35,460 bases of DNA from an uncultured Eubacterium sp. (GTDB lineage Bacteria > Bacillota > Clostridia > Peptostreptococcales > Anaerovoracaceae): positions 1 through 35,460 of the forward strand of contig CAMNSS010000023.1 in the NCBI GenBank assembly GCA_946555345.1, in the 5' to 3' direction. Numbering within the stretch: the first letter of the stretch is position 1; the number at the start of each line of letters is the position of its first letter. Below the pieces are notes generated by a model. It did not search any database, was not told the origin of the DNA, and saw only the letters and a list, made by a program, of their open reading frames with translations. The position numbers and the translations under genes were made by a program. Shown here piece after piece: positions 17,762 through 33,823 of this stretch.

Positions 17762-18574
17762 TCAAATCCACTCGATTTCCGCCCTTTTCAGCCGATTCGG
17801 CACATTAACATATTCCTCATCCTCTGTATAACCGACGAGCAAAACGCCGTATACCTTATTGCCTTGCGGAATTTTCAGCATATCCCGGATTACGGGGACA
17901 TCGTTACACATATCGATGAGATACCCCGACCAGCACGTCCCGATGCCACGGGACTGGAGAACCAGCTCTGCGCTGTACAGCCCTAAGACCGTATCGATGC
18001 AAGGATTCGTCGCACTGGTATCGGCATAGCCGATGATAATCGTCTCCGCTTTCCCCATAACGATGTTTTTTCCCCTCTGGTATAATCTGTCGATTTCAGG
18101 GGAAATGCCTGTTTCCCGCACATAACTGATGATATGCTCCATGATGCGATCCAGCTTTTCCCGACCCTCCAGCACCATCCAGCGGGCGGGATGTTCATTC
18201 TTTGCGCTCGGCGCCCAAGATGCGATATCCAAGGCATATTCAATCTCTTCCCTCGGCACAGCCGCAGATTGAAAGTTTCGATAAGATCTTCTATTGACAA
18301 GATGTGTTTCGATGGAGCGAAATTTCACTTTTGAAAGGCTGCTCTCTTCCTCAAACGCATCATGCGAAAATACGGTCTTGTTGCTGCCATTCTCTTTTGC
18401 AAAGGTCACGGCTTCTTCCGGGCATGCTGCGGCACAATGCAGGCAATCGATACAAACCATTTCTTTATTGAGAAATACCTGACCATCCTTTTCCTGAAAT
18501 ACGCCGGCAAGACAAGCGGTAATGCACCGCCTGCAATGAATGCATCTTTCGTAATTGATTTGCCATTTGACCAT
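17762..18574 (-). CDS. Ferredoxin-nitroreductase fusion protein
   Basis: A 270-residue protein. The N-terminus is a 2[4Fe-4S] ferredoxin (C11, C14, C17, C21 and C41, C44, C47, C51, the last in CAAACPEE). An FMN-dependent nitroreductase domain follows from about residue 90, with NRRSYRNF and APSAKNEHPARW typical of FMN binding. Such fusions take electrons from ferredoxin and reduce an unknown acceptor. The start was set to the ATG at 18574 because AAGGAG lies nine bases upstream; the longer frame from 18631 adds 19 Lys-rich residues with a weak site. It ends the main catabolic gene run and could re-oxidise reduced carriers made by the aldehyde oxidoreductase module. Confidence 0.88.
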   Translation of the reverse strand: MVKWQINYERCIHCRRCITACLAGVFQEKDGQVFLNKEMVCIDCLHCAAACPEEAVTFAKENGSNKTVFSHDAFEEESSLSKVKFRSIETHLVNRRSYRNFQSAAVPREEIEYALDIASWAPSAKNEHPARWMVLEGREKLDRIMEHIISYVRETGISPEIDRLYQRGKNIVMGKAETIIIGYADTSATNPCIDTVLGLYSAELVLQSRGIGTCWSGYLIDMCNDVPVIRDMLKIPQGNKVYGVLLVGYTEDEEYVNVPNRLKRAEIEWI

Positions 18575-18703
18575 TTTAATGTCTCCTTTTTTCTCGCTCC
18601 GCTTTAAGGCCTTCTTTATCAAGGCTTCCATTTTATCGCCGCCTTTATTGTCTCCGCTTTGATGGCGTCTTTTGTTTCAGCCCCGAAAGGTCAGAATATA
18701 AAT

Positions 18704-18907
18704 TCATTTTTCTTCCAACGCCATTTCCACTTCGTTTATCTTCCCTTTTACCAGCGCCTCCGGAATATACACCTGCCCGCAGATGGGACAGCGAAGCAAC
18801 TCCGTATCAAAATTATGTTTCAAATAAGAAAAATCCGTTTTGGTTTTCACTAGCGCCACATTGCATTTCATGCATATGATGCGGTCCCTGCTTTCATCCA
18901 TTATCAT
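18704..18907 (-). CDS. Small zinc-ribbon-like redox protein (DVU_1557-type)
   Basis: A 67-residue protein with CMKC near the N-terminus and CPICG in the middle, ending in a charged helix. From memory, this matches a small family named after Desulfovibrio vulgaris DVU_1557, encoded beside a Mop-type aldehyde oxidoreductase (DVU_1559) and a fused flavin/dicluster protein (DVU_1558); the same three partners occur here. Its role is unproven, perhaps metal binding, maturation or electron relay. GGAGGGGC precedes the ATG; the third codon, also ATG (18901), has better spacing and may be the true start. Confidence 0.75.
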   Translation of the reverse strand: MIMDESRDRIICMKCNVALVKTKTDFSYLKHNFDTELLRCPICGQVYIPEALVKGKINEVEMALEEK

Positions 18908-19032
18908 GCCCCTCCGTCAGATCCTTTCATCGTCTTCCATCGTCACGCCCGTCTGCTCTATCTATCGTCATTCCCTTTTGCTGCATCGCTTCACCAAATT
19001 CCTCAGCTATGCTTCTCCGTCAAATGCTTCCA

Positions 19033-21483
19033 TTACCTTCTGTCATACTCCGCTTCAATGCGCATCCTGTGGCAATAGATATTCACCAGGCGGAAACCTT
19101 CCCCCTCCGGCCGGTATTCCACCCAGTACGTCATATGGTTCTGCATCAGGTGTCCGATATAGTGTCCCGTTTCTTCGTTCAGCAGCTTATAACCGTCCTG
19201 CTCGCAAAAATCGATTACATCCTGTGCGTCTTCTTCCAAGATCAGTTCCCTGTTCATTTTCACGGCAAGCGCTTCATCAATATACAGTTTCATCTTCTTT
19301 TCTGCCTCCGGACAATCGCTGATTCCAAACCGCAGCTGCATCCTCCGTCTGGCCTCTTCCCTGTTTCTTCGTCTCTGGGAAAGACTGGGAGCTTGCTGTC
19401 TCATGCGGGCTTCCAGATTATCTTCTCCACCCTTTCGTGCCTGCCCGTCCGACCCATCCGATTCAACCAGCCACAAAAGATCCAGCACATGAGCGGCACG
19501 CTTTCCAGATGCCGCAAAACTGTCCTTGCAATTCGTACAGTATGTGATGTAATCCGCGGTACTGGTGCTAATTCTGGCTTCTGTAACCCGATCCAGCAGG
19601 TTTCGGTCTACCGCATGAATGTGTCCGCCATATCCGCAGCACTGTGCATCCTTTCCATGGTTTGGCAATTCTTCAATCTGCATCCCGCTGTTTCGAAGCA
19701 CCTGCCTTACGCTGCGCTGCATTTGCGCAAATTCCCTAGACGAACAAGGATCAAATACAGCGTATACGGCGTCTTTGCTACCTGTGATCCGAAAGCCATG
19801 AGAAGCCATGACCTCATATACGGATATGATTTTACAATCCTCTAAGTACGTGCCGAGAAGCTTCCCGCAAGAAGGACAAGCGACGATCAGCACAGGCTCG
19901 CCCCACGCTTTCCATGCCGCCCGGATTTCCCCGATTACCTGGAGAAACCGCTCCTGATCGCCCGCCCAATAAGCTGGCGCACCGCAGCAGGAAAGCATAA
20001 CGCCCACATGATTCAAGCATTTATCCAAATAATCATATGTTTTACAGACATATCCCGCATCCGAGCTTCCCATCTGACAGCCGGGAAAGAAAAGATACAA
20101 GCAATACGCATCTTTTTTCAATACGGCATATGCGTGCGGCGACAAAGCGTGCTCCATATCCCGCAGCCAAAAAGCATGGTATGCCGGGGGAATATCCCCC
20201 GCCTTCTGCATCTGCCGCCTGCTTTCCAAGAAAATTTCTTCAAAGTCAAAATCGGAAGGGCAACGCTCTCGGCAGCTGCCGCACAGATTGCAGGAATTGA
20301 TCTGCCTCGATGCAATCCGCACTGTATAACCCTCCATGACATTTAATGTAGCATTCACATCTTCGATCACTTTTTGAGGAAACTTCTTGTATTTTGCCAA
20401 CATCTCACAGCTATCAAGGCACGTGCTGCAACCGCAAAAAAGGCAGCGCTCCGCCTCGCAGACAGCTTCTTCCCGGGTGAAAGGTTTTTCTGCGCCCACT
20501 GACCCCAACGCATCAACTATTTCCGGCTTCCCCGGCGCATCCGCATCTTCCGGCATTCCCGGCTTCCCCAGCACGTCCATTTCTTTTGGCATTCCTAGCG
20601 ACCTAGGCGTCCCCGATGCTTCCAACAACTCCGGCTTTTTTGAAACAATTCCCTTCAAATCCATTTTTAGCCTGGATGGTTTGCGCTCATAGAGATCCTT
20701 CCGCTGCTGTATGCGAGCCACCTTTAAAAAACCTTCGATCTCCGTCGCCACCAGGATTCCCTGCCGCAACGCTTCTATCGTGCTATCTTCTTTTTTTCCA
20801 AGCGGACTCAAGAATACGCCATGGCGGTCAGATGCCAGGCTGTTTTCCGCAAAACGGCTCTGCAATCCAAACCTGCTGCCGTTTTTTCCAGTCGCAACAT
20901 ATACGGCATCGCATGACAGCTCGTCAAGCGATCTGACCTCATGCCCTAAGAAGACCTGAATCCCGTCCGCCTGAAAAAGCGGCTGCAACTCGTCTTCTAT
21001 GATATCCGCCGTAAAAAGCGGCGTAACCTGCTCCCACAAAAGCCCGCCGAGCCTGCTTTCCTTCTCATATAGGTCAACCTGGTAGCCTCTCTGGGAAAGC
21101 TTTACAGCGCACCCCAGCCCACCTAGCCCGCCGCCGACAATTCCAATTTTTTTATCTTTGGCAGGCACATAATAGCCATCTTCGCTTCTTTTCTTCGCAT
21201 AAAGGCAGCAAGCCTCTTCGATTTTCCGAATAGCGATCGCTCCGCCAAAGGACTTGCGCATACAGCTTCCGCCGCATGGCGCATCACAAACAGCGCTTAC
21301 AATTTGGGGAAACAAGACCGCATTTCGATAAAGCCGGTAAGCAGCATTCAGTTTATTGTTTTTGATTTTCTCCAAGAAGGCTTTTACATCTATGCGAAGA
21401 GGACACGCATTCGTACAGTACGCAGGTTCGTCCCGCATACACCGCTGCGCCATCTCTTTCAGCTTTACGATATCCATGCCCAC
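19033..21483 (-). CDS. Fused FAD oxidoreductase / ferredoxin / CCG-domain electron-transfer protein
   Basis: An 816-residue multidomain protein. It has a GltD-like Fe-S segment (cysteines about 15-91), an FAD/NAD(P)-binding Rossmann domain (GIVGGGLGGLG, about 114-124), a repeat-like Gly/Pro linker (about 285-333), a dicluster ferredoxin with cysteines about 342-359 and 398-408, then a CCG (HdrB/GlpC-like) domain with PGCQ, SCCGAP, CPSCGK, DPC, QCCGYGG and YCTNC (about 467-652), and a basic C-terminal part. It likely carries electrons from the adjacent aldehyde oxidoreductase, which has no flavin domain. The start is GTG at 21483, with ATG at 21477 as an alternative. It follows the oxidoreductase by 43 bases. 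Confidence 0.88.
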   Translation of the reverse strand: MGMDIVKLKEMAQRCMRDEPAYCTNACPLRIDVKAFLEKIKNNKLNAAYRLYRNAVLFPQIVSAVCDAPCGGSCMRKSFGGAIAIRKIEEACCLYAKKRSEDGYYVPAKDKKIGIVGGGLGGLGCAVKLSQRGYQVDLYEKESRLGGLLWEQVTPLFTADIIEDELQPLFQADGIQVFLGHEVRSLDELSCDAVYVATGKNGSRFGLQSRFAENSLASDRHGVFLSPLGKKEDSTIEALRQGILVATEIEGFLKVARIQQRKDLYERKPSRLKMDLKGIVSKKPELLEASGTPRSLGMPKEMDVLGKPGMPEDADAPGKPEIVDALGSVGAEKPFTREEAVCEAERCLFCGCSTCLDSCEMLAKYKKFPQKVIEDVNATLNVMEGYTVRIASRQINSCNLCGSCRERCPSDFDFEEIFLESRRQMQKAGDIPPAYHAFWLRDMEHALSPHAYAVLKKDAYCLYLFFPGCQMGSSDAGYVCKTYDYLDKCLNHVGVMLSCCGAPAYWAGDQERFLQVIGEIRAAWKAWGEPVLIVACPSCGKLLGTYLEDCKIISVYEVMASHGFRITGSKDAVYAVFDPCSSREFAQMQRSVRQVLRNSGMQIEELPNHGKDAQCCGYGGHIHAVDRNLLDRVTEARISTSTADYITYCTNCKDSFAASGKRAAHVLDLLWLVESDGSDGQARKGGEDNLEARMRQQAPSLSQRRRNREEARRRMQLRFGISDCPEAEKKMKLYIDEALAVKMNRELILEEDAQDVIDFCEQDGYKLLNEETGHYIGHLMQNHMTYWVEYRPEGEGFRLVNIYCHRMRIEAEYDRR

Positions 21484-21526
21484 GGCCTGATTCCCCCATC
21501 TCGTTTGCTAATTGATATTTTTCCCG

Positions 21527-24352
21527 TTATTCAACAACAGGGTTCGCTTTGATCTGTTCCATTCTTTCATAATAATCTGCGCCAAGATAATATCGTTTCG
21601 GTGCAATGGTTTTGCCTTCTGCTTTCGCCTTAATTCCTTGTAAAACCTTTTCAGGCGTTGCCGGCAATTCATGAATCCTCACGCCGCACGCATCGTTGAT
21701 CGCATTGATTACCGCCACATGCGGAGAAGTCTGGAACAGTTCAGCACAACCGCTACCGCCATGCGGGCCTGTCGGTCTTGGCGACTCAACAAAGTCCACA
21801 TACATTGCATCAGGCACTGCATCGATGAACGGAAATCCAGCGCCTACTATTGTGCGATGCTTTTTCACGTCCTGATAGTCTTCGGACAGCGCCATTCCGA
21901 TCCCGTGCTGCATGCCGCCGAAGGCCTGGCCTTCTACATTGATCGGATGTCCTACTACGCCGACATCTGCCACGCAGCGAATGGAAAGAACCTTGGTTTT
22001 TCCCGTCTTCATATCCACCTCGACTTCGCTCAGGAACGCACCATACGTGTACTCCGCCGTTGGATTGCCCTGCCCTGTATTCGGATCTAAGTTTTTCGTG
22101 AAGCTAGTTGTATCGAAAACGCCGATGTATTTCGTCGGTATCTTTTCCGCCACCATTTCATCATAGGTCCGGTAGGTTCCGTCGTCCTTCTTCATCGCTT
22201 TTATCAGCTTATCTGCTGCATCCTTGATGGCATTTCCGGCCATATAATGCGATCTGCTGCCTGCGGCTGGACCTGTGATTGGCGAAAGCCCTGTATCGTT
22301 CTGGCAAAGCCTGATTTGATCCATCTCGATTCCCAACGGCCGCAGCGCTTCATAGGTGTGAATCAGCGTCCCTGCATCTGCACCCTGCCCCTGGTCTTCC
22401 CACGTATTGTACGAGGTAATTGTTCCATCTGGGTTCAATCCGATCGCAACCTCTGCATGGTCGTTCGGCCCTGATGTTACATTATACATACCGCAGGCAA
22501 CACCGACACCGCGCCGTTTTTCATCGGTCGTTTCAGCCTTAGCCCTTTCACGAGCCTTCTGGTAATGCGGCCTGAGTTTATCCAGGATCTCACGCATCGG
22601 ATAAACGGAAAAGGTATTTCCATTGAGGCTTGTATCTCCATCCTTGTATACATTGATATACCTGAATTCTAGTGGATCGATTCCGGCCTTTTCAGCCAGC
22701 ATATCCATTATTTGCTCCGAAGCGGTATACGCCTGCGGAGAACCGAATCCTTTGTATGCCGTGGAATATGCGTGATTTGACATGACTGCCTTGGAAAGGC
22801 CCATAGCGTTCGGAATCGTGTATGGCGCTCCCATGAACCGCACGCCCTTTTGAATCAAGATCCCTGCCACTTCCGAATACGCACCCTTGTCATAAGCAAT
22901 CTCGTATTCGATGGCCGTCAGTTTCCCGTCCTTGCCACATGCCATCCTCACATTGCTGTAAGACGGTGCGCGCTTTCCCGTAATATGCTGATGTTCTTCG
23001 TAGCTCAGCGTGATGGTCACAGGTTTTCCCGTCGCCAGCGTTGCAACTGCCACAAGCCCTTGGGTAAGCGGTGAAATGGAATACCCGAAGCTTGCGCCTG
23101 TCGGATTTTCAATGATGCGAATCTTCTCTTTTGGAAAACCAATCCCCGCTGCCAATGTACCGATCGGCGTCCCAAGACCGAGGCTTTTACAATGGATTAC
23201 CAGCATTCCATCGCCGTCAACATATGCCTGGTTCGTATCCGGCTCTAACACCAGATGCGGCTGCCTCTGCGAATAGAAGCTCCCTTCCACCGCATATTCG
23301 GATTCATCGATGACATCCCTCGTATCCTCACCCTTTAACACGACCTGTTCCAAGTAAATATTCGGATGCTCTGGATGGAGCTGAATCGCATCTTCTGCGC
23401 AGGAATCCAGGATATCCATGTATTCCGGCATCTGCTCGATTTCCACCTTGACAGCCTTCGCCGCTTCCCTGGCCTCATCCCTCGTCCTGGCCGCCACCAT
23501 CGCAACCACGTCGCCGTATCGGAACACTTGATTCGATGCAAGGATTTCATGATCAAAACCATCGGTCTTAGAACGCGGATTTCCCAACGGCCACGTAATT
23601 CTGTTAATTCCCTGCACGTCCTCCGCCGTAATGACTTTGACAACGCCCGGCATATTTTCTGCTTCCTGCTTATCGATAGACAGAATTTTTCCGTTGGATA
23701 CACCCGGAAGAACGACTGCCAGATGCAAAACGTCCCGCATCTTCATGCCGATGTCATCGCCATAGTCGCACGTTCCTGTCGCTTTGGCAATCGCCGCCGG
23801 TCTTGGAATCGACACGCCATAGATCTTGCCATCTTCCGGCATCTGAAATTTCAAGTGTTCGATCGGCTCTTCCCCTCTCATCACTTTTGCTGCTTCTACC
23901 ACACAATTTACGATATGCTTATACCCGATACACCTGCATGCGTTTCTGTTCTTCATAAACCAATCCCGGATTTCCTCCCTGGATGGATTCAGATTCTGCT
24001 TTAAAAGCGCATAGGCCGATACGATAAAGCCCGGGGAGCAAAAGCCGCACTGAACGCCGCCGTATTTTACCCACGCAAGCTGCAACGGGTGCATATTCGC
24101 AGGGGAGCCAATCCCTTCAATCGTGATGATTTCCATCTCCTCTGTGATGGTTTTCATCTTTCTGACGCAGGATCTGACTACTTTGCCATCCACCAGCACG
24201 GAACATGCACCGCACTGTCCCGCATCACAGCCGACCTTCGTTCCCGTCAGGCCAATCCTCCTTACCAGATCCGCCAAGGTATCCTTTTCCGGATCACAGA
24301 TGACCATACGAATCGCTCCATTGATGTTTAAGTTCATCTTTTTGAGTGCCAT
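21527..24352 (-). CDS. Molybdenum aldehyde oxidoreductase, Mop type
   Basis: A 941-residue xanthine oxidase family enzyme oxidising aldehydes to carboxylic acids with water. Two N-terminal [2Fe-2S] domains carry C42, C47, C50, C62 and C102, C105, C139, C141, the same spacing as Desulfovibrio gigas Mop with a constant +2 shift. The molybdopterin domain follows to the C-terminus. GGSGCAEL aligns with the Mop active-site GASGVGEL and keeps the catalytic Glu. There is no FAD domain, so electrons must pass to a partner, probably the downstream flavin/FeS protein. Its ATG overlaps the symporter stop by one base (TAATG), implying coupling. Cofactor-maturation genes are not in the window. Confidence 0.93.
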   Translation of the reverse strand: MALKKMNLNINGAIRMVICDPEKDTLADLVRRIGLTGTKVGCDAGQCGACSVLVDGKVVRSCVRKMKTITEEMEIITIEGIGSPANMHPLQLAWVKYGGVQCGFCSPGFIVSAYALLKQNLNPSREEIRDWFMKNRNACRCIGYKHIVNCVVEAAKVMRGEEPIEHLKFQMPEDGKIYGVSIPRPAAIAKATGTCDYGDDIGMKMRDVLHLAVVLPGVSNGKILSIDKQEAENMPGVVKVITAEDVQGINRITWPLGNPRSKTDGFDHEILASNQVFRYGDVVAMVAARTRDEAREAAKAVKVEIEQMPEYMDILDSCAEDAIQLHPEHPNIYLEQVVLKGEDTRDVIDESEYAVEGSFYSQRQPHLVLEPDTNQAYVDGDGMLVIHCKSLGLGTPIGTLAAGIGFPKEKIRIIENPTGASFGYSISPLTQGLVAVATLATGKPVTITLSYEEHQHITGKRAPSYSNVRMACGKDGKLTAIEYEIAYDKGAYSEVAGILIQKGVRFMGAPYTIPNAMGLSKAVMSNHAYSTAYKGFGSPQAYTASEQIMDMLAEKAGIDPLEFRYINVYKDGDTSLNGNTFSVYPMREILDKLRPHYQKARERAKAETTDEKRRGVGVACGMYNVTSGPNDHAEVAIGLNPDGTITSYNTWEDQGQGADAGTLIHTYEALRPLGIEMDQIRLCQNDTGLSPITGPAAGSRSHYMAGNAIKDAADKLIKAMKKDDGTYRTYDEMVAEKIPTKYIGVFDTTSFTKNLDPNTGQGNPTAEYTYGAFLSEVEVDMKTGKTKVLSIRCVADVGVVGHPINVEGQAFGGMQHGIGMALSEDYQDVKKHRTIVGAGFPFIDAVPDAMYVDFVESPRPTGPHGGSGCAELFQTSPHVAVINAINDACGVRIHELPATPEKVLQGIKAKAEGKTIAPKRYYLGADYYERMEQIKANPVVE

Positions 24353-25809
24353 TACATATCCTCCTTCGCATTGCTGATACGTTTGCTTTTTTCTTCTGCC
24401 ATCATAGCGGAAACCGCTTCTCGATATAACCGATATCCGGCGGAGACCTGCTGCTTACTCATCAAAGTCAAAATCACCAAAATGATTAGGCAGATGGCCG
24501 CCCCCGGCCAGAAGCATGAAATTCCCATCGGATTTTTTGCAAAAAACCACACTGCCGCTGTTGCGCCGCCCACTAACATGGACCAAAAAGCCGCCGTCGT
24601 CGATACCCTCGGCCAGAATAAGGCCACCAGCAGCGTAATCGCCACGATAGAGCGGATTTGAAACGCTCCGTACATCTGATCCAGGAAGGAATCCGCACTA
24701 AGTCCCAAGAGCGTCCCTACAATTCCTACCAGTACAACGCACAGCCTCGATACCTTCAGTTCCTGTGCATCGGTCGCTTCCGGCTTCATTCTCTTATAAA
24801 AATCCCGTGTCAGGGTCGTCGATGCGATCATCAAAAGCACCGGCGCTGTTGACCAAATGGCTGCAATGATGGCCATGCTTGTCACGCCGCTGTAAGTACC
24901 GCCAAGCTGATGTGCCATGCTGAACAGAGCCGTACCGGGATCGATATCAGGCAGGACAACTTTCGCGCAGATACCCACCAGCGATGGGCATAGTGCAAAC
25001 GGCGCTACGATCAATGCTGCGATCGGCATCCCGATCCTGGCCGTTTTTAAATCCTTCGCCGTAAAGCTCACCGTTACCGCCGTTGCCGCTGCCAGCATGG
25101 AAATGGCTGTCCCTAGCCCATTGGCAATGGTCGTCGGTACATTTGGCTGCATGAAACTGAAATACGTTTCCGGCAATACCGCATGAAGGGCATCCATGCC
25201 GCCGGCATAATGAACCGATTGATAAGCAATGATCGCCATTCCAATCATCATGATCACCGCATGAAGCACGTTCATGAAGGCGATTCCTTTCATCCCGCCC
25301 GACAACGTCACCAAGATAAAAATTGCTGCTGCGATCCATGCCACCACGGTTTCATTAACGCCGAAGAGCGGTCCGATAATCGCGCCTACTGCGGCAGGCT
25401 GGTTGGAAAACAGGATCATGTAAGTGATTACGATTACAAACAGCATGACGATCCTGCATTTTTCATCGAACATATACTTGTACGCTTCCGGAACGGAAAT
25501 CACGCCTTTTTCTTTGTTCATTCCCTTATAGAACTTCAATGCTAAGAGAACGAACAAAATTACGCCGATAGCCAGCCCCCAATCAGCCCAGACGGAAGAA
25601 AACCCCATATGATAGGCTTTCTGCGCGTTGCCGATCGTCCCTGCTCCCGCAATTAGTTCGGAAAACAGAAGAGGAATGACCAGTACGACACCCAGCTCGC
25701 CTCTCGCCGTCATAAATTTCTTGGAATCTCTGTTTCGTTTCCTAAAATATAAGCTGATGCTAATCGTAACCGCCATGTATACGATCAGCATAATCATTGT
25801 CACATTCAT
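24352..25809 (-). CDS. Sodium:solute symporter (SSS family)
   Basis: A 485-residue membrane protein with about 13 hydrophobic segments and the SSS pattern, including an N-terminal GELGVVLVIPLLFSE segment and a GAIIGPLFGV loop. Family members import sugars, carboxylates, amino acids or vitamins with sodium. The substrate is not readable, but the location between a zinc dehydrogenase and an aldehyde oxidoreductase suggests it imports the operon's substrate. AGAGGCAGAAA precedes the ATG at 25809. A large hairpin (25853-25903) lies between the dehydrogenase stop and this gene. Its stop overlaps the oxidoreductase start by one base. Confidence 0.9.
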   Translation of the reverse strand: MNVTMIMLIVYMAVTISISLYFRKRNRDSKKFMTARGELGVVLVIPLLFSELIAGAGTIGNAQKAYHMGFSSVWADWGLAIGVILFVLLALKFYKGMNKEKGVISVPEAYKYMFDEKCRIVMLFVIVITYMILFSNQPAAVGAIIGPLFGVNETVVAWIAAAIFILVTLSGGMKGIAFMNVLHAVIMMIGMAIIAYQSVHYAGGMDALHAVLPETYFSFMQPNVPTTIANGLGTAISMLAAATAVTVSFTAKDLKTARIGMPIAALIVAPFALCPSLVGICAKVVLPDIDPGTALFSMAHQLGGTYSGVTSMAIIAAIWSTAPVLLMIASTTLTRDFYKRMKPEATDAQELKVSRLCVVLVGIVGTLLGLSADSFLDQMYGAFQIRSIVAITLLVALFWPRVSTTAAFWSMLVGGATAAVWFFAKNPMGISCFWPGAAICLIILVILTLMSKQQVSAGYRLYREAVSAMMAEEKSKRISNAKEDM

Positions 25810-25852
25810 TTTCTGCCTCTTTTTCTGTCTCTTTCTGCCGGTTCATCATTCC

Positions 25853-25903
25853 GCTGTTTGAAGCGTGCCGGAGACCAACCAATCCCCCGGCACGTAAAAC
25901 AGC
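25853..25903 (-). other. Intercistronic hairpin within the catabolic operon
   Basis: CGTGCCGG (25864-25871) pairs with CCGGCACG (25887-25894), and the outer GCTGTTT pairs with AAACAGC. No T-run follows on the minus strand, so it is unlikely to terminate. It may protect or process the long mRNA between the zinc dehydrogenase and the symporter. Confidence 0.55.
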
Positions 25904-25930
25904 TATGAAATGGAGACCATCTGAATTTCT

Positions 25931-26959
25931 TTATCCGCTGATTTTCAGTAAAACTTTCACGTTCTTGGTGTCTCCAGATGCGAGATCCTCAAAGACGGCC
26001 TGGATGTCCTCAAATGGCCTGATATCCGTTATGAATTGCCTTAAATCGACTTCCCCCGCAGTCAATGCCGCCAAAGAGGCCTTAAACTCTTCAAACGTCC
26101 ACGCATGGGAAGGGATTACAGACATATTCTTTACGACGACCGGATTGAAGTTGAATGGGATCATCTCATTTGGAACGCCAAGGACCATCAGCTTCCCGCC
26201 TGATTTCAACACATCCAGATACCCATTGAGTGTCGCTTGAATGCCTACGCATTCAAAAATCATATGGTATTTTTCGCCGCCATTGGCCGCCAAGAGCTGA
26301 TCCAGGCAGTCTTCCGCTTTGGCATCGATTACCTTATCGATGAAATCGCATTTCTTCGCGAACGCCATCCTCTTCGCGCCGGCTTCCGCCATGGTGATCT
26401 GCTTCGCACCGGCTTTCTTTGCCCACATGGCAGACATCAATCCGATAATACCGCCGCCTACTACCAGCACGGAGTCCTTTGGGCCTACCTGCGATTTATT
26501 GGCAGCTGCCAACCCTACTGCCGCAGGTTCGACTACCGTCGCATCTTCAAACGGCACGTGTTCTTCCAGCTTAATCGGCAAGTGGGATCGAACCATGACA
26601 TATTCGGCAAACCCGCCCGGCGTACCGATCCCGATCGCGTCGGTCAAAGGCGCTTCACAACAATTCGTCAAGCCCGCATGACAGAATTCACAATCGAGGC
26701 ATGCTTTACTCGGCATACAAATCACCCTGTCGCCTTTTTTCAAATCTTCCCTGTCACCAGGATCTTCCACGTATCCCGTAAATTCATGACCCATGATCCA
26801 GCCCTTTGCCCATGAGTCACCGTAATGCCAATAGTGGAGATCAGATCCGCATACCCCCGCATAAGCAACCTTGATTACGACTTTATGCCCATCACTCTGC
26901 GGGATATCCCGTTCAATAATATCAATTTTCTCTTTATCCGCTATGATTGAAGATTTCAT
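25931..26959 (-). CDS. Zinc-dependent alcohol/polyol dehydrogenase (MDR superfamily)
   Basis: A 342-residue medium-chain dehydrogenase. Catalytic zinc residues are C37 (GVCGSD) and H58-E59 (GHEF). The structural zinc site is C87, C90, C93 and C101. The NAD-binding glycine motif is VVGGGIIGL (about 166-174). It resembles sorbitol, threonine and 2,3-butanediol dehydrogenases. Between an SDR and a symporter, downstream of an acetoin-dehydrogenase-like complex, a diol or ketol is the most reasonable substrate, but this is inference. The start at 26959 has an AGGATATAGAAT site. Confidence 0.92.
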   Translation of the reverse strand: MKSSIIADKEKIDIIERDIPQSDGHKVVIKVAYAGVCGSDLHYWHYGDSWAKGWIMGHEFTGYVEDPGDREDLKKGDRVICMPSKACLDCEFCHAGLTNCCEAPLTDAIGIGTPGGFAEYVMVRSHLPIKLEEHVPFEDATVVEPAAVGLAAANKSQVGPKDSVLVVGGGIIGLMSAMWAKKAGAKQITMAEAGAKRMAFAKKCDFIDKVIDAKAEDCLDQLLAANGGEKYHMIFECVGIQATLNGYLDVLKSGGKLMVLGVPNEMIPFNFNPVVVKNMSVIPSHAWTFEEFKASLAALTAGEVDLRQFITDIRPFEDIQAVFEDLASGDTKNVKVLLKISG

Positions 26960-26990
26960 ATTCTATATCCTGCCTTTCTGCGTACCCGGC

Positions 26991-27779
26991 TTATACACAA
27001 ACCTGGCCACCGTTGATATTGATCGCCTGCCCCGAAATATTTCGTGCCAAATCAGAACATAAGAACAACACTGCGTTCGCCATATCTTCCGGCTCTTGCG
27101 GCCGCTTCATCGGAATGTTGGAAACGACTCTTCCCCAGCGCGTTTCAGGATCGACAGAATTATCGTAACCATCGTATTCCCGCAAATTCTGTTCCCACAT
27201 TTCCGTGCGGACAATGCCCGGACAGATGCAGTTCACGTTGATGTTGTATTTGCCCAGTTCCTTTGCCAACACCTGGCTCATTCCGATCACGCCGAATTTG
27301 GTGGCAGAATACATCGAATGATAATCAAACGGCGCTTTTCCGGCCTGGGATGATGTATTGACAATCTTCCCTTCCCTTTGCTTGATCATATGCCTTACCG
27401 CTGCATGGCAACCGTGGTATACGCCTTTCAGATTGATATCTACCAATTTATTAAATTCGGAAATATCAGAGTCTGCAAAGAGCTTAATTACGTTATAACC
27501 AGCATTGTTGACTATGACGTCCAGCTTGCCGTATTCGGCTACAACACCATCGATCATAGCATCCATAGCCGCTTTGTCCGTTACATCGATTTGAAAAGCC
27601 TTCGCCGTGCCGCCCTTTTCCTTGATTTCAGCGGCAACCTCTTCTGCATTTTCTAAAATCAGGTCGGAAACCATCACAGAAGCCCCAGCTTCTGCCAGCT
27701 TGCGGGAAATCGCTTTGCCAAGCCCCCTTCCCGCACCTGTAACGATTGCAACTTGTTTCTCTAAATTGATCTGTACCAT
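26991..27779 (-). CDS. Short-chain dehydrogenase/reductase (acetoin/sorbitol reductase-like)
   Basis: A 262-residue NAD(P)-dependent SDR. The cofactor motif is GAGRGLGKA (about 15-23), NNAG follows (about 91-94), and the catalytic triad is S143/S144, Y157 and K161 in SMYSATK. The C-terminus GQAININGGQ is typical. I set the start at the ATG at 27779 because AAGGAGAGAAAA directly precedes it and the fold begins there; the longer frame from 27848 adds 23 unconserved residues. It resembles diacetyl/acetoin reductases and sorbitol-6-phosphate dehydrogenases. Confidence 0.92.
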   Translation of the reverse strand: MVQINLEKQVAIVTGAGRGLGKAISRKLAEAGASVMVSDLILENAEEVAAEIKEKGGTAKAFQIDVTDKAAMDAMIDGVVAEYGKLDVIVNNAGYNVIKLFADSDISEFNKLVDINLKGVYHGCHAAVRHMIKQREGKIVNTSSQAGKAPFDYHSMYSATKFGVIGMSQVLAKELGKYNINVNCICPGIVRTEMWEQNLREYDGYDNSVDPETRWGRVVSNIPMKRPQEPEDMANAVLFLCSDLARNISGQAININGGQVCV

Positions 27780-27856
27780 TTTTCTCTCCTTTTGCCGAAG
27801 CTCCCACACGAAAGCTCCCTTATCACGAAACAAAAGCAAATTTTGCATTCAATCGA

Positions 27857-29146
27857 CTATGCGCCAGCCTCTGCCTCCGCCGTTGCTTCCGCATTCTTCT
27901 TGCTGCGCTTGCTGGTATCCTGTGCCAAAGCCAGGCAAATTACCGCACCGATTCCGCCGATGGCGAACATAGCGATCCAGCCTGCCAGAGCGCTGGAGGA
28001 AGCCATAACCGTGGTAAAGATCAGCGGGAATACAACGCATCCGATTTTGTTAAGCTCAGTCAGAAGACCGGAAGCGATACCAGCCTTAACGCCTGCACAG
28101 TCCGGGTGTTCCATCATGAGCGTCCTTGCTGCGATCAGCCCAAATCCAAGGCTTAAGCCTGCGATGTTGATCATGATGCAGGATGCCAGGATATTTCCCG
28201 TGAATGCAGATGCCGGATACATGAACGATGCGAAGACCATGGCCGGAATCATGACCTTCTTCCTCGCTCCTTTGAGGAACTTATCGGCGATAAATGGCAT
28301 CACCCAGTAACCGATAGAAGATCCGATATTAGACATAGAAATCATGAGGCCTGCATCTTCCGTGCTAAGACCGTCCCAGATGCTTAAAAATGCGAGAGGC
28401 CCTACGGATGAGAATGTCAAGATTGCACCGGCAAAGAAGAACTCTGCCAGCGAACACAGAATGATCTGCTTTGAAGTGAGCGCTTCCTTGAGCTTTCTTC
28501 CGAAGGTGTAATCTTCCGCCTTGATTCCCAACGACTTATTCATCACGCCTTCCGCCTCTGTCCTGGTCGGGATTGCGAAAAAGTAGACCACTGCCAGAAT
28601 CACGATAATTACACCATAGACTTGGAACAATTTATCCCACCCGCCAAGGGCTGCGGACCAAGGCATTGTGCCATTAAAGCCGATGAAGTATCCCAGTGCG
28701 CCGCCAGAGATGTTAATCCCATTCAGCTTATAAGTCATCTTCGCATCAAACCAAACGTTGATCATTTTCAGGCATCCGGGGATGATCATCGCATTCGCGA
28801 TCCCCGTGCAAAACAATGCGATGTACGCCGTCGTAAAGTCAGAAACATACCCTCTGCAAAATGTGGAAACGCCGCTGATTACGATGAAGATTGCCATCAT
28901 GGCCTTCGGGTTGAATTTGTCAAGCAAAAGACCGGTCAGCCATACCGTCCAAACAACACCCATGGCGATACCGCCTGCTAGTAAGCCATACTGCGCGGTG
29001 GTGAATCCCATTTCTTCCGTCCAGGTCGGCAGCAGGATCGCTGTACTTGTAGTGTTTATTCCACAACAAAAGATCATTACCACCAGACCGAGCGCAGCCA
29101 CGAGGACTGCCTTTCCCCTGTCATTTCCGTTAAGATAATTAGCCAT
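27857..29146 (-). CDS. MFS transporter
   Basis: A 429-residue protein with about 12 membrane helices and a conserved loop between helices 2 and 3 (LLLDKFNPKAMMA), as in the major facilitator superfamily. The Ala/Glu-rich tail (about 415-429) is low complexity. The substrate is unknown; members of similar size often carry organic acids or sugars. A strong AGGAGGTTACGA precedes the ATG. It starts 75 bases after the E3 gene, an AT-rich gap with two CGATAAC words and no clear promoter, so it is probably part of the same transcript. Confidence 0.9.
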   Translation of the reverse strand: MANYLNGNDRGKAVLVAALGLVVMIFCCGINTTSTAILLPTWTEEMGFTTAQYGLLAGGIAMGVVWTVWLTGLLLDKFNPKAMMAIFIVISGVSTFCRGYVSDFTTAYIALFCTGIANAMIIPGCLKMINVWFDAKMTYKLNGINISGGALGYFIGFNGTMPWSAALGGWDKLFQVYGVIIVILAVVYFFAIPTRTEAEGVMNKSLGIKAEDYTFGRKLKEALTSKQIILCSLAEFFFAGAILTFSSVGPLAFLSIWDGLSTEDAGLMISMSNIGSSIGYWVMPFIADKFLKGARKKVMIPAMVFASFMYPASAFTGNILASCIMINIAGLSLGFGLIAARTLMMEHPDCAGVKAGIASGLLTELNKIGCVVFPLIFTTVMASSSALAGWIAMFAIGGIGAVICLALAQDTSKRSKKNAEATAEAEAGA

Positions 29147-29221
29147 TCGTAACCTCCTAAAAATTAATTTAATAACGATAACTACTAATTCATGCGATAA
29201 CGGATTAATTACAACAACAAC

Positions 29222-30592
29222 TTAAAACGAATGCACCGCTTCTCCCCCAATATCATGCACTGCTTCCATAACCGCCTCTGCGATGGTAGGATGCGGATGG
29301 ATTACGCTTCCGAGCTGACGTACAGACAGCCCCAGCTGCACTGCCACTGCCAGCTCGCTGACCATATCGGTCACGTGCGGACCTGCCATCACTGCGCCGA
29401 TCAGGCAAGACGCTTCATCGGCGATCACCTTCACAAAACCGCTGGTCTCGCCCATGACCATAGCTTTTCCAAGGCCTGCCATATTGAACCTGCCGATTTG
29501 ACAGGCGATCCCTTTCTCCTTTGCCCGATCCTCCGTCATGCCCACGCATGCGATTTCCGGATGGGTATAGACACATCGCGGCACAGCATGATACGTCATC
29601 ACGCTATCCCTTCCCATGATGTTCTCTACTGCCACGACAGCTTCGCGCGAAGCGACATGAGCCAATGCAGGGGAATCTACAATATCGCCAATGGCATAAC
29701 ATCCATCCACGCTCGTCTGCATTTTCTCATCCACCAAGATTTTCCCCTTTTTTATCGCTAGGCCTGCTTCTTCAAGCCCGATGCCTTCCGTCAGGGGCTT
29801 TCTGCCTATGGAAACCAGCATTTTTTCCGCTTCCAGCGTTTTTCCATCTGACAGCAGGACAGAAACTGTTCCGCCGCAGGCCGTTACTGCATCCACCTTT
29901 GTCCCTGTCAAAATGTCGATTCCGTCCTTTTTCAATGCCTTGGCAAGCAGCGTCGATGCATCGGTATCCTCCATCGGAAGGATGCGCCCTGCCAGCTCAA
30001 CGATGGTCACCTTGCATCCCATTTTCCGAAAAAACTGGCCAAATTCACATCCGATCACGCCGCCGCCCAGTATGACCATGCTGTCCGGCAGTTTTTCCAG
30101 GCGCAGCGCTTCATCGCTGGTAATCACGTGGATGCCATCATAATGAAATGCATCGGCTGCAACCGGCTTAGAACCTGTTGCCAAAATTACTGCATCTGCC
30201 GTAAGTGTCTGTTCATTCCCGTCTTCCGTAACGACTGAAACGGATCTTTCCCCAGCGAGCTTGCCGATTCCCCGAATGACCTTCACGCCGCGTTTTTTTA
30301 AAAGGAATCCCACGCCGCCAACGAGCTGCTTCACGAGCTGGTTTTTCCGCTCCAGCACTATGGCATAATCCATTACAGCCGTCCCGCTCATGACGCCGAA
30401 ACGCCCAGCGTTCACAACTTGATTCAGACAGTCTGCGCTTTGCAAAAACGATTTTGTGGGAATGCAACCCCTGTTGAGGCACGTACCCCCGACCTGATCC
30501 TTTTCAACGAGGATCGTTTCCGCGCCCAGGATCGCCGCCTTCAAAGCAGCCACATATCCCCCCGGGCCTCCGCCAATTACGATAACCTTCAT
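29222..30592 (-). CDS. lpdA: Dihydrolipoyl dehydrogenase (E3)
   Basis: A 456-residue FAD enzyme that reoxidises dihydrolipoyl groups with NAD. FAD binding is GGGPGGYVAA (about 7-16). The redox-active pair is C38 and C43 (GGTCLNRGCIPTK). The NAD-binding motif is ILGGGVIGCEFG. The active-site His-Glu pair appears in HPHPTIAEAVMEA near the C-terminus. Unlike E3 enzymes in some acetoin operons, it has no N-terminal lipoyl domain. AGGAGGCGCAGAGC precedes the ATG, which lies 13 bases after the E2 core stop. Confidence 0.95.
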   Translation of the reverse strand: MKVIVIGGGPGGYVAALKAAILGAETILVEKDQVGGTCLNRGCIPTKSFLQSADCLNQVVNAGRFGVMSGTAVMDYAIVLERKNQLVKQLVGGVGFLLKKRGVKVIRGIGKLAGERSVSVVTEDGNEQTLTADAVILATGSKPVAADAFHYDGIHVITSDEALRLEKLPDSMVILGGGVIGCEFGQFFRKMGCKVTIVELAGRILPMEDTDASTLLAKALKKDGIDILTGTKVDAVTACGGTVSVLLSDGKTLEAEKMLVSIGRKPLTEGIGLEEAGLAIKKGKILVDEKMQTSVDGCYAIGDIVDSPALAHVASREAVVAVENIMGRDSVMTYHAVPRCVYTHPEIACVGMTEDRAKEKGIACQIGRFNMAGLGKAMVMGETSGFVKVIADEASCLIGAVMAGPHVTDMVSELAVAVQLGLSVRQLGSVIHPHPTIAEAVMEAVHDIGGEAVHSF

Positions 30593-30604
30593 GCTCTGCG
30601 CCTC

Positions 30605-31282
30605 CTATAATAACTGCTCCGGCTCTGCCAGAAGCGCTACAACTTCCCCAAGGAAGGCAGCCACAGGCATTCCATCTGCCAGCATATGATTGTAATTGCC
30701 CATGATGTTTCCGATCAACCTGATGGAAGTGGTGTCATCGTCATTGACAACGAGCTGTTTTTTATAGCGCGCCAGCCCGATGATGATGCATTCGTTGTTA
30801 TTGATGATAGAATCGAAGTAATCGTTGGTGGACATTGCCTCATTGCTCACCGAGAATGTGCTGCCGGTCATTTCGTCCGGGGATGCTTTGCCGCGTTTTA
30901 AGCGGCTGGCAACATCCCGCAGCTCTTCTGTAATCTGTATAATGCTTTTATTGGCAACGTCTTTCACGGTTACTACCATTAACCCTCTTTCTGTATCCAC
31001 TGCAATCCCCGCATTGGCTTCGTCGTAGTAAACGATTTCCCCGTTTTCCAGCCGCGTATTGAGCTGCGGATATTTCTGTAATTTGATCCCGATGGCCTTT
31101 ACTAAAAACGCCGTCGTGGACAAGCTCTGTCCTTTCGCCTTATATGCTTTTTTCAGTTGATCCAGTTCCGTCATATCCACCGTCGTCATAATGGTGGCAT
31201 GTGGAATAGATGTGCGGCTTTCGTGGAGCTTCGTCCCGATCAGCTTTCTCACGCCGCGTAGTTTTTCTCTCTTGATTTCCAT
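30605..31282 (-). CDS. E2 catalytic core (dihydrolipoamide acyltransferase) without lipoyl domain
   Basis: A 225-residue acyltransferase of the 2-oxo acid dehydrogenase E2 family. It is only the catalytic (CAT-fold) domain: MEIKREKLRGVRKLIG starts where the core normally begins, MTGSTFSVSN lies near residue 140, and YNHMLADG (H199, D203, G204) holds the catalytic His, with Asn replacing the usual Asp before it. Normal E2 proteins carry lipoyl and peripheral subunit-binding domains ahead of this; both are missing. The lipoyl domain is on the preceding gene. GGGGAGGCGAAGGAG before the ATG shows it is a separately translated gene, not a frameshift product. Confidence 0.92.
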   Translation of the reverse strand: MEIKREKLRGVRKLIGTKLHESRTSIPHATIMTTVDMTELDQLKKAYKAKGQSLSTTAFLVKAIGIKLQKYPQLNTRLENGEIVYYDEANAGIAVDTERGLMVVTVKDVANKSIIQITEELRDVASRLKRGKASPDEMTGSTFSVSNEAMSTNDYFDSIINNNECIIIGLARYKKQLVVNDDDTTSIRLIGNIMGNYNHMLADGMPVAAFLGEVVALLAEPEQLL

Positions 31283-31308
31283 TGCTGTCTCCTTCGCCTC
31301 CCCTTTGG

Positions 31309-31578
31309 TTATTCATCCAGAAGGCCTGTGATGTCCTCACCTTCTTCCCCAATAATGGCGATCGTTGCCTGGCAAGGAACGGTTTCATCTTCGTCTGCAA
31401 CGATTTTCAAAAGGACGCCGTCCGCAGTTGCTTCGATTTCATTGGCCAGCTTTTCTGTCGTCACTTCACAGATCGGCTCTCCTTTTTTGACAACGTCTCC
31501 TTCCTTTTTCAACCATGCAGTAATCGTCCCGTCCTCCATCGTCAGCCCCAGCTTCGGCATGATAAATTTACTAGCCAT
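31309..31578 (-). CDS. Free-standing lipoyl (biotinyl) carrier protein
   Basis: An 89-residue single-domain lipoyl carrier that swings acyl groups between E1, E2 and E3. The MPKLGLTMEDG N-terminus is typical of E2 lipoyl domains, and the lipoylation site is K43 in TTEKLANEIEA. It ends after the domain (GLLDE, then TAA), 26 bases before the E2 core start. AAAAGGAGACGAAA precedes the ATG. It is clearly a complete small gene rather than a truncated E2. Confidence 0.92.
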   Translation of the reverse strand: MASKFIMPKLGLTMEDGTITAWLKKEGDVVKKGEPICEVTTEKLANEIEATADGVLLKIVADEDETVPCQATIAIIGEEGEDITGLLDE

Positions 31579-31624
31579 TTTCGTCTCCTTTTCTTGCCTT
31601 TTTGTTTGCAGGCTTTGTCTTCTC

Positions 31625-32596
31625 CTATAAAATTGATTTCACTGCCTTTACGACATCCTTTTCATGCGGCAGGATGTAATCTTCCAGGTTCGCTGTGAAC
31701 GGAACCGGCGTATTGAGCGATCCGATCCTGATGACCGGCTTTTTCAACAGATCGAAGTTTTCCTCCGCCAGCATAGCCGCCAATTCCCCAGACCATGCGC
31801 CCCGCTTGTTCTCTTCTGTAATGATCACGACTTTGCCTGTCTTGGCAACGGATTTCACAATTGTTTCCTTGTCCAGCGGGAACAGAGATCTCGGATCGAT
31901 GATCTCGATACTGATGCCCTCTTCTGCCAGTTGTTTTTCTGCTTCCAGCGCCACATGAACCATCCTGCCTGTCGCAATGACCGTAACGTCTTTTCCTTCC
32001 TTCTTCACATCGGCTGTGCCGATCGGAATTGCTACGCCATTGGCTTCAAACGTATCACTGATACGGTATAACCTCTTATGCTCGAAAAACATGACCGGGT
32101 TGTCATCCCTGATGGAAGAAAGCATCAGTCCATATGCTTCCTGCGGCGTAGATGGGTATACGACCTTCAACCCGGGGATGTGCGCCAGCAACGCTTCCAA
32201 GTTCTGTGAATGATGCCCCGCAGCTCCTTTCGGACATCCGCCCGGCAGCCTCACGACCATCGGGACACTGATCTGTCCGCCATTAAAGTACCTCGCCTTT
32301 GCTGCCTGATTTGCGATCTGATCCATGGAGATCAGCATGAAGTCTGCAAACATCAATTCTGCAACCGGGCGCATTCCCACCATGGCCGCGCTTACAGATG
32401 AACCGATGATCATCTGTTCCGAAATCGGCGTATCGATTACCCTGTCCTTTCCAAACTCATCCAAAAGCCCTTTGGTGATTCCAAATGATCCGCCCATTAC
32501 GGCGATATCTTCCCCGATACAATAAACACTGTCGTCCCTTGCCATTTCTTCACGGATAGCCGTTCTAATGGCTTCAATCATTGTTGCTTTTGCCAT
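31625..32596 (-). CDS. acoB: 2-oxo acid/acetoin dehydrogenase E1 beta subunit
   Basis: A 323-residue transketolase-like pyrimidine-binding subunit. It has the E1 beta features: an ALREEMARDDSVYCIGED-type N-terminus (read here as IREEMARDDSVYCIGED), a central GGCPKGAAGHHSQ loop and a C-terminal half ending near ILPHEKDVVKAVKSIL. It pairs with the E1 alpha gene, whose stop lies two bases upstream. The acoB symbol follows the AcoR neighbour and the acetoin hypothesis; pyruvate or branched-chain E1 cannot be excluded by sequence alone. Confidence 0.9.
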   Translation of the reverse strand: MAKATMIEAIRTAIREEMARDDSVYCIGEDIAVMGGSFGITKGLLDEFGKDRVIDTPISEQMIIGSSVSAAMVGMRPVAELMFADFMLISMDQIANQAAKARYFNGGQISVPMVVRLPGGCPKGAAGHHSQNLEALLAHIPGLKVVYPSTPQEAYGLMLSSIRDDNPVMFFEHKRLYRISDTFEANGVAIPIGTADVKKEGKDVTVIATGRMVHVALEAEKQLAEEGISIEIIDPRSLFPLDKETIVKSVAKTGKVVIITEENKRGAWSGELAAMLAEENFDLLKKPVIRIGSLNTPVPFTANLEDYILPHEKDVVKAVKSIL

Positions 32597-32598
32597 AA

Positions 32599-33579
32599 TT
32601 ATCTATCCTCCTCAATGATATCTGTGTACACGCCCTCCAAAGCTTCTTTATTTTCTGGGAACGGGCTGTCTTCTGCAAATTTCACGGCTTCCAGCATTTC
32701 CGCCTCTGCGGCCTTGTCGATGGCATCCAGCTCTTCCGCCGTCGCCATCCCATCTGCAATCAATTTATTCCTTGCCGTAAGAAGCGGGTCTTTCGCTTTC
32801 CAAGCTTCCAGTTCTTCCTTCGTCCTGTAAAGGCAGGCGTCGCCGACGAAATGTCCGGTCCAGCGGTACGTCTTGCATTCGATCAGTGTAGGGCCTTCGC
32901 CGCACCTTGCCCGTTCCACGGCTTCCTTGGCAGCGTCGTAAACGGCAAATACATCATTTCCATCCACGACTACGCCCGGAATCCCGTATCCTTGCGCCCT
33001 GTCCGCCAAGTCGGTAACATTCGTTGCTTCCTGCTGTTTCGTTGAAATCGCATACAGGTTGTTCAAAAGTACATATACGACGGGCAATTTCTGTGCGCTG
33101 ACAAAGTTCAGGCTTTCATGGAACGCACCCTCGTTGCTTGCACCATCCCCGAAGAATACCACGGAAACCTCATCTGTTCCTTTAATCCTCGATGCGATGG
33201 CAGGTCCCACTGCCAAAAGCTGTCCTGCGCCGACGATCCCATTTGAACCGATCACGCCCATGTCCAGGTTTGAAATATGCTGCGAGCCGCCCTTTCCCCT
33301 GTTGTAGCCGGTAACCTTTCCGCAGATTTCCGCAAACATCTTCTTGGAATCAAGTCCTTTGAGGAGCATATGGTTATGCCCTCTGTGATAAGTACACAGA
33401 TAGTCCTTCTGTTCCAGGTTCGCGCACACGCCAGCAGGAATTGCTTCCTCCCCAATGCCGGGATGAACGAAACCGTAAACAAGACCGCTGCCAAAATTAT
33501 CAACAACCTGCTGTTCAAAGTTTCTCGCCCTGGCCATGCCCTCATACAGCTTCAAGCATTCCGCCTTCGTTAAACTCAT
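32599..33579 (-). CDS. acoA: 2-oxo acid/acetoin dehydrogenase E1 alpha subunit
   Basis: A 326-residue thiamine-diphosphate subunit. The ThDP motif begins GDGASNEGAFHESLN and ends about 30 residues later in LLNN, as expected for GDG-x(25-30)-NN. The N-terminus (MARARNFEQQVVDNF) and GHNHMLLKG resemble acetoin and pyruvate E1 alpha proteins. AAGGAGGGAAAGAA precedes the ATG. It is the first gene of the run, about 30 bases downstream of a predicted sigma-54 transcript start, beside an AcoR-like activator, which is why acetoin is favoured. Confidence 0.9.
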   Translation of the reverse strand: MSLTKAECLKLYEGMARARNFEQQVVDNFGSGLVYGFVHPGIGEEAIPAGVCANLEQKDYLCTYHRGHNHMLLKGLDSKKMFAEICGKVTGYNRGKGGSQHISNLDMGVIGSNGIVGAGQLLAVGPAIASRIKGTDEVSVVFFGDGASNEGAFHESLNFVSAQKLPVVYVLLNNLYAISTKQQEATNVTDLADRAQGYGIPGVVVDGNDVFAVYDAAKEAVERARCGEGPTLIECKTYRWTGHFVGDACLYRTKEELEAWKAKDPLLTARNKLIADGMATAEELDAIDKAAEAEMLEAVKFAEDSPFPENKEALEGVYTDIIEEDR

Positions 33580-33620
33580 TTCTTTCCCTCCTTCTGTTCT
33601 TTCTTGATGCCCTATATAAG

Positions 33621-33637
33621 AGCATAAATCATGCCAA
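33621..33637 (-). promoter_or_regulatory. Sigma-54 (-24/-12) promoter of the catabolic operon
   Basis: The minus strand reads TTGGCATGATTTATGCT: GG at the -24 element (33635-33634) and GC at the -12 element (33623-33622) with exactly 10 bases between, matching TGGCAYR-N4-TTGCW except for one base in the -12 box. A start near 33611 would leave about 31 bases before the E1 alpha ATG. The neighbour is a sigma-54 activator. Confidence 0.8.
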
Positions 33638-33640
33638 GAT

Positions 33641-33740: not shown

Positions 33741-33823
33741 ATTTTTTACGATTATGCAGAGGAGGATTTTTTTCCACCTCGCATCTTTATCAGTTATTTT
33801 TAGATATTCCTGTTTGAAATCTT

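Follow-up and report, generated by a model that had tools for sequence, protein, structure and literature searches.

In 2-oxo acid and acetoin dehydrogenases, substrates are channelled within a complex whose E2 scaffold binds E1 and E3 via a peripheral subunit-binding domain (PSBD). The present analysis concerns a 35,460-base stretch of DNA from an uncultured Eubacterium sp. (CAMNSS010000023.1; hereafter the window, which is one entire contig of a 2.85-Mb genome, 96% complete, in 36 contigs), where 13 minus-strand genes (17762-33579) lie 3' of a sigma-54 activator gene, an inverted repeat and a promoter-like element. The gene order is E1alpha, E1beta, lipoyl protein, E2 core, E3, major facilitator superfamily (MFS) transporter, short-chain dehydrogenase/reductase (SDR), zinc dehydrogenase, sodium:solute symporter (SSS), molybdopterin aldehyde oxidoreductase (Mop), NF045663 flavo-iron–sulphur protein, DVU_1557 protein and ferredoxin-nitroreductase.

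Among described systems, the acetoin dehydrogenase system of Clostridium, Pelobacter and Bacillus (acoABCL with AcoR) turns acetoin into acetaldehyde and acetyl-CoA (PMC3022650, available excerpt). The locus resembles it in E1 type, E3, the sigma-54 activator with a promoter-like site and the neighbouring dehydrogenases of diol/ketol type. Unlike in the aco system, E2 consists of two proteins without a PSBD, and a Mop cassette, a symporter and an MFS transporter stand in the same gene run. The aco feature of a sigma-54 activator with a -24/-12 promoter is present as judged by sequence pattern, while an E2 chain uniting lipoyl, PSBD and catalytic domains is absent. Because the E2 architecture departs from the aco definition, we regard the system as acetoin-dehydrogenase-like, with aco-clade E1 and control, and not as a canonical member.

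The Mop genes resemble the known Mop cluster (D. gigas Mop; NF045668, NF045663 and NF045645, DVU_1557) in that all three family cut-offs are passed and the trio stands together in four family relatives; they differ in being attached to an acetoin-type operon and in the replacement of two phenylalanines which we take to belong to the substrate pocket. Predicted sigma-54 control of mop is shared with the MopR regulon of Clostridium, for which the function is given as unknown in the accessible part of PMC6615313; acoABCL and mop are entered there as separate sigma-54 regulons, whereas mop in the window sits behind an acetoin-type gene set. A stand-alone lipoyl protein as carrier is also found in the glycine cleavage system (H protein) and in LbpA, the single-lipoyl-domain protein listed beside five characterised lipoate-dependent complexes in PMC6067878 (excerpt). 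Unlike these, the carrier in the window would serve an E1/E2/E3 acyl-CoA system. Its match in the profile scans is to the PF00364 lipoyl domain, with none reported to an H-protein model, and no glycine cleavage P or T protein was found among the window proteins scanned, the genome not having been searched for them.

We lean towards reading the locus as an operon under sigma-54 control for the breakdown of a vicinal diol or an acetoin-type alpha-ketol. The likely core is a ketol dehydrogenase whose lipoyl carrier is free, like GcvH, and whose aldehyde product is then oxidised by a molybdenum enzyme. In this pathway the SSS and MFS carriers would import the substrate or export a product, and the SDR and/or the zinc dehydrogenase would convert diol to ketol. 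The thiamine pyrophosphate-dependent E1 would cleave the ketol, the acyl half passing to the free lipoyl protein and the aldehyde being released; the stand-alone E2 core would transfer the acyl group to CoA, and E3 would reoxidise the lipoyl protein with NAD+. Mop would oxidise the aldehyde to the acid, with electrons passing via its [2Fe-2S] clusters to the NF045663 protein. A diffusible GcvH-like carrier, rather than an E2-scaffolded complex, is implied by the split E2.

More tentatively, and with rather less than even confidence, we propose that the scaffold of the E1–E2–E3 acyl-CoA system has been lost in one clostridial lineage, with a free lipoyl protein moving between E1, the bare E2 core and E3 in place of PSBD-mediated binding, much like the carrier of glycine cleavage, and that one member also oxidises the aldehyde set free, by means of a molybdenum enzyme encoded in that operon. 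If true, both substrate halves would yield usable electrons. A natural PSBD-free system with separate carrier and transferase would directly test the need for an E2 scaffold, and the operon offers a concrete pathway proposal for a Mop enzyme, the sigma-54-controlled mop genes of Clostridium being given an unknown function in the available text of PMC6615313.

Division of E2 over Two Genes

The oddest feature of the locus, overlooked by an earlier sequence-only reading that had placed all parts of the operon correctly but counted E2 as one component, is the PSBD-free division of E2 between two genes, one for a lipoyl protein of 89 residues and the other for a catalytic core of 225. The lipoyl-lysine motif of the small protein, read from the sequence, is TEKL. 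Self-built hidden Markov models detected neither a lipoyl domain nor a PSBD in the core, and no PSBD was found in the operon. A PF02817 search of the whole genome (positive control detected in 10 of 14 genomes) also returned none, the PSBD that marks 2-oxo acid dehydrogenases going undetected in these 36 contigs. By comparison, 100 of 107 other E2 open reading frames (ORFs) examined contain a PSBD, the remaining seven being six that are split likewise and one at a contig end; the window's own duplicate loci had been removed from the E1 and E2 sets.

The core retains His199, Asp203 and Gly204 of the HxxxDG motif, and the full CAT/E2 fold was predicted for it, so the stand-alone core is, as a prediction, an intact E2/CAT fold with its catalytic motif. 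A gene for lipoate ligase is present in the genome. Frameshift or mis-start as the origin of the split was ruled out, as the 26-nt gap between the lipoyl and core genes is too small for a PSBD, an AAGGAG-like site precedes each gene, and the split recurs in other genomes. No description of split lipoyl/E2 genes was found among the literature titles and abstract openings listed, a coverage that mostly excludes subscription journals. Elsewhere in the window, a 299-residue protein (14125-15024, minus strand) encoded next to an acyl-CoA ligase gene gave a partial PF00198 match of 47 bits; its HxxxDG site reads DERIADG, and the catalytic His seems to be replaced by Glu.

Type and Lineage of the E1 Subunits

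Across the genome, PF00676 gave one strong match (300 bits) and two weak ones (28.6 bits each). E1alpha scores below both curated pyruvate dehydrogenase (PDH) cut-offs (TIGR03182, 339.1 against 393.85; TIGR03181, 257.8 against 411.35), and E1beta passes the broad PDH E1-beta subfamily model NF006667 (355.1; cut-off 321). In a 111-row tree of E1alpha and E1beta, the window groups with the split-E2 relatives G531, G035 and G123 (SH-aLRT 98), and this four-locus group is nested with a support of 99 in a 25-row clade that includes Clostridium, Tissierella, Acetobacterium and Thermoanaerobacter. For 16 of the 25 rows, a sigma-54 activator is encoded somewhere in the fetched locus. A second tree, with four rows added and 24 of the 115 dropped, gave a five-row clade with a support of 97. 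By sequence, E1alpha and E1beta are thus placed within a clostridial, sigma-54-linked clade of acetoin-dehydrogenase type, in a tree whose rows include no characterised acetoin dehydrogenase.

On an Enterococcus plasmid, a relative whose E1alpha is 47% identical to that of the window is annotated in the order sigma-54 regulator, lpdA, E1alpha, E1beta, E2 and 2,3-butanediol dehydrogenase. At another locus (L059), a 696-residue ORF matches E1alpha and is possibly an E1alpha–E1beta fusion.

The Mop Cassette

Mop aligns nearly end to end with the aldehyde oxidoreductase 1sij, which we take to be the D. gigas enzyme. Eight iron–sulphur cysteines, presumably forming two [2Fe-2S] sites, are kept, as is the presumably catalytic Glu in GSGxxEL, and the score lies above the NF045668 cut-off. 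Mop and homologues of NF045663 and DVU_1557 occur together in all four long Mop loci (L116-L119), one of which (L118) is a second copy of the cassette in the same genome, with a gene for a molybdate-binding protein nearby. MoaA, for supply of the molybdenum cofactor, is also encoded in the genome. For the ferredoxin-nitroreductase fusion, no convincing match was found (best E 0.35) at 33 Mop loci, which were mostly short and included three that appear twice. Mop-type genes are widespread among family genomes, with detections in 39 of 148 (E 1e-80).

In one split-E2 relative (G035), whose E1 and E2 genes are divided between two contigs, the E2 core gene is followed by one of the AOR family and, about 5 kb beyond that, by a Mop gene, an arrangement that is suggestive, though not proof, of a shared need for aldehyde oxidation. 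At L151, two distant Mop matches (25% and 44% over parts) lie in the same locus as E1alpha. According to the accessible text of PMC4275255, Pelobacter carbinolicus grown on ethanol expresses a molybdenum-dependent acetaldehyde dehydrogenase when tungsten is lacking, and its cells grown on acetoin show non-acetylating acetaldehyde dehydrogenase activity.

Gene Organisation and Predicted Sigma-54 Control

The features of the locus are collected in Table 1. From E1alpha to the ferredoxin-nitroreductase gene, the intergenic gaps are 2, 46, 26, 12, 75, 8, 31, 121, -1, 43, 125 and 72 nt. At 24352, the symporter stop and the Mop start share a TAATG overlap, which suggests translational coupling. Within the operon region, predicted terminators were not in excess over shuffled sequence (16 against 16.7), and neither were sigma-70 promoters in a dedicated scan; a search with Rfam returned no element within the operon, its sole match being a tRNA elsewhere.

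The activator ORF carries a GAFTGA motif and its frame is still open at the contig end, which is also the end of the window, so that the N-terminus lies outside the sequence. The element TTGGCATGATTTATGCT (33637-33621, minus strand) has one mismatch to the Clostridiales sigma-54 consensus TTGGCATNNNNNTTGCT, taken from the available part of PMC6615313; every other site in the window has at least two. Sites with up to two mismatches were at chance level for this consensus (6 found, 5.4 expected) and showed no excess for the general consensus TGGCACNNNNNTTGC (33 found, 40.4 expected); since looser matches occur at chance level, the case for the promoter rests on position and on the single best score. 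Upstream of the element, a perfect 11-bp inverted repeat with a 9-nt spacer was equalled in 1 of 300 shuffles. Among relatives, 18 of the 140 sequences taken upstream of E1alpha, and none of 140 shuffles, contain a site with no more than one mismatch; the number of distinct sites is below 18 because some of the 140 loci overlap. RpoN is encoded in the same genome.

Much of the sequence-only reading is thereby upheld. Its run of 13 minus-strand genes holds if the 67-residue ORF at 18704-18907 is counted, and its short gaps with one TAATG overlap correspond to gaps of -1 to 125 nt and the overlap at 24352. The proposed sigma-54 control agrees, at the level of sequence, with the activator domains, the promoter-like site and RpoN. 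Likewise, its acetoin-dehydrogenase-like E1 is in line with the clade placement (support 99), and its molybdenum aldehyde oxidoreductase with FAD/FeS carrier with the passing of the NF045668 and NF045663 cut-offs.

Table 1. Features of the operon and its upstream region, with positions in the window.
Feature	Position	Strand	Evidence
Sigma-54 activator (AcoR/DhaR/PrdR-like EBP), N-terminus cut by contig end	33824..35446	-	PF00158 228.6 bits, PF02954 39.4 bits
Inverted repeat, candidate activator-binding site	33712..33742	no strand	11-bp perfect arms, 9-nt spacer
Sigma-54 -24/-12 promoter-like element TTGGCATGATTTATGCT	33621..33637	-	Clostridiales consensus match
E1 alpha, TPP-dependent dehydrogenase	32599..33579	-	PF00676 300.4 bits; TIGR03182 339.1, below cut-off 393.85
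E1 beta	31625..32596	-	PF02779/PF02780; NF006667 355.1, cut-off 321
Free-standing lipoyl protein, 89 aa	31309..31578	-	PF00364 65.7 bits; TEKL motif; no PSBD
E2 catalytic core alone, 225 aa	30605..31282	-	PF00198; no lipoyl domain, no PSBD
E3 dihydrolipoyl dehydrogenase, without lipoyl domain	29222..30592	-	TIGR01350 525.1, cut-off 408.8
MFS transporter	27857..29146	-	PF07690 105.8 bits
SDR dehydrogenase, acetoin-reductase-like	26991..27848	-	PF00106 217.1 bits; best PDB match 4weo
Zinc-dependent polyol/threonine-dehydrogenase-like enzyme	25931..26959	-	PF08240/PF00107; PDB matches
Sodium:solute symporter	24352..25809	-	PF00474 92.3 bits
Mop, molybdopterin aldehyde oxidoreductase	21527..24352	-	NF045668 1273.4, cut-off 1100; best PDB match 1sij
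FAD/NAD and multi-FeS electron-transfer protein (NF045663)	19033..21483	-	720.7, cut-off 530
DVU_1557-family small Cys redox protein, 67 aa	18704..18907	-	NF045645 78.3 bits, cut-off 60
Ferredoxin-nitroreductase fusion	17762..18631	-	PF00881 90.4 bits and Fer4 domains

Substrate and Alternative Readings

The best PDB match of the SDR, 4weo, is a putative acetoin(diacetyl) reductase. For the zinc dehydrogenase, the best PDB matches are threonine dehydrogenase and ketose reductase, and with an annotated 2,3-butanediol dehydrogenase it shares only 28% identity. The pathway drawn in the sequence-only reading is plausible on these grounds: dehydrogenases of broad diol/ketol type, Mop and its FAD/FeS partner are in place, but acetoin as the substrate does not follow, sequence alone being unable to settle acetoin against another ketol.

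Several findings weigh against an acetoin-type diol or ketol operon. The SDR scores 231 against a cut-off of 304 for the acetoin reductase family, and neither it nor the zinc dehydrogenase reaches a curated diol/acetoin family cut-off. The E2 core, which lies on a long branch, keeps 26 of 39 conserved columns where fused E2s keep a median of 38, and Arg200 and Pro163 are replaced in it by Met and Asn, respectively; with such divergence, an altered acyl or acceptor specificity is possible. Two genus-mates with E1alpha, G538 and G544, carry an ordinary fused E2, and the neighbours of split E2s are so different (hydantoinase- and B12-domain proteins, UbiD, a sulfatase-like protein, an NCS1 permease) that a common E1/E2 unit does not necessarily indicate acetoin. 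Internal promoters could fit in the 121- and 125-nt gaps. A Mop of this type was found beside E1alpha in none of 137 other fetched E1alpha loci, many of them short (many extend about 1.5 kb past the match; 45 of 80 named loci have at least 9 kb downstream), which weakens the link between the molybdenum enzyme and the pathway. The pocket of Mop differs as well, I426 and V495 standing for F425 and F494, two pocket residues of the D. gigas enzyme. These replacements, together with the non-acetoin neighbours at split-E2 relatives, favour a ketol dehydrogenase acting naturally on another alpha-hydroxyketone or polyol, for example one derived from a sugar or amino acid, with a larger or differently shaped aldehyde for Mop. 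The transporters, which match D-galactonate-type MFS and PutP-type symporters (all below cut-offs), and the zinc dehydrogenase, which matches threonine, inosose, idonate and ketose enzymes, point the same way; with E1 inside the acetoin-type sigma-54 clade and an acetoin(diacetyl) reductase as the closest structure to the SDR, this substrate is possible, if somewhat doubtful.

A 2-oxo acid dehydrogenase for pyruvate or branched-chain substrates, in place of a ketol-cleaving complex, would fit the E1beta score above the NF006667 "pyruvate dehydrogenase E1 beta" cut-off and the single strong E1_dh match in the genome, and a cluster of Acetobacterium woodii is called a "potential pyruvate dehydrogenase/acetoin dehydrogenase" in the available text of PMC10472528. 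However, E1alpha falls under both PDH cut-offs, and such an enzyme would give CO2 instead of an aldehyde, so that no clear role would be left for Mop and the diol dehydrogenases. In addition, a pyruvate:ferredoxin oxidoreductase (PFOR) domain occurs in two long ORFs of the genome (1199 and 1179 aa), making a pyruvate role for the complex unnecessary. We consider this explanation quite improbable. Also unlikely is a division of the run into two or more units, with an acetoin-type operon from E1 to the zinc dehydrogenase or the symporter and an independent Mop cassette behind it. The absence of E1 from the four family loci that combine Mop with NF045663 and DVU_1557 homologues, one of them (L118) in this genome, and the two widest gaps speak for separate units, while the symporter–Mop overlap and terminator predictions at shuffle level speak against them.

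Occurrence of the Split E2 among Relatives

Of 349 family genomes, 10 were found to have separate lipoyl and core genes, at 11 loci with the window counted, and these loci represent at least two E1 lineages. In the E2-core tree the window groups with the other split lineage (SH-aLRT 84), as it does in a careful tree (90/88) for which 54 of 107 rows were kept and 53 left out by choice, four of those as long or odd; row L111 was dropped for its position at a contig end. Topology tests rejected neither the window with its E1 relatives (p-AU 0.44) nor all split cores together (p-AU 0.23). As the window's E2-core branch is very long and the alternatives are not rejected, the E1 tree is preferred for the history of the split. 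A single origin of all split E2s was discarded, since the E1 trees require two separate groups.

A further survey covered the best 80 of 580 confirmed E1alpha relatives. E2 is fused at 56 of these 80 loci, a small lipoyl gene without an E2 match is present at two, and 22 have no E2; a stand-alone core was found at none of the 80, and a search of a genome-contig collection with the E2 core returned no relative. An SDR gene, a zinc-dehydrogenase gene or both are present at the split-E2 loci G019, G577, G579, G667, G724 and G123, which supports a diol or ketol theme, not acetoin itself.

The split-E2 operons L206 (G531) and L248 (G599) have a gene of 533-560 aa before E1alpha, hydantoinase/oxoprolinase-like in L206, and one of 591-637 aa between the lipoyl and core genes, with a weak B12-binding-domain match in L206. 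The split-E2 region of G035 (L108, 1240-12212) encodes a UbiD-type decarboxylase, a sulfatase-like protein, an anaerobic sulfatase maturase and an AOR-family protein, and in G123 (L103, 5445-6506) a lipoate-protein ligase gene lies close to the split-E2 operon. In Chloroflexota and Actinomycetes (L193:9105-12408 and L194:2-3071), the order SDR, E1alpha, E1beta is followed by a separate lipoyl gene of 92-98 aa, with no E2-core match within the locus. Finally, 13 of the 107 E2 ORFs (L007, L009, L013, L017, L020, L024, L025, L040, L167 and others) have a PSBD and no lipoyl domain, the lipoyl match lying instead in an adjoining long ORF, presumably E3; the lipoyl domain seems mobile between subunits within the family.

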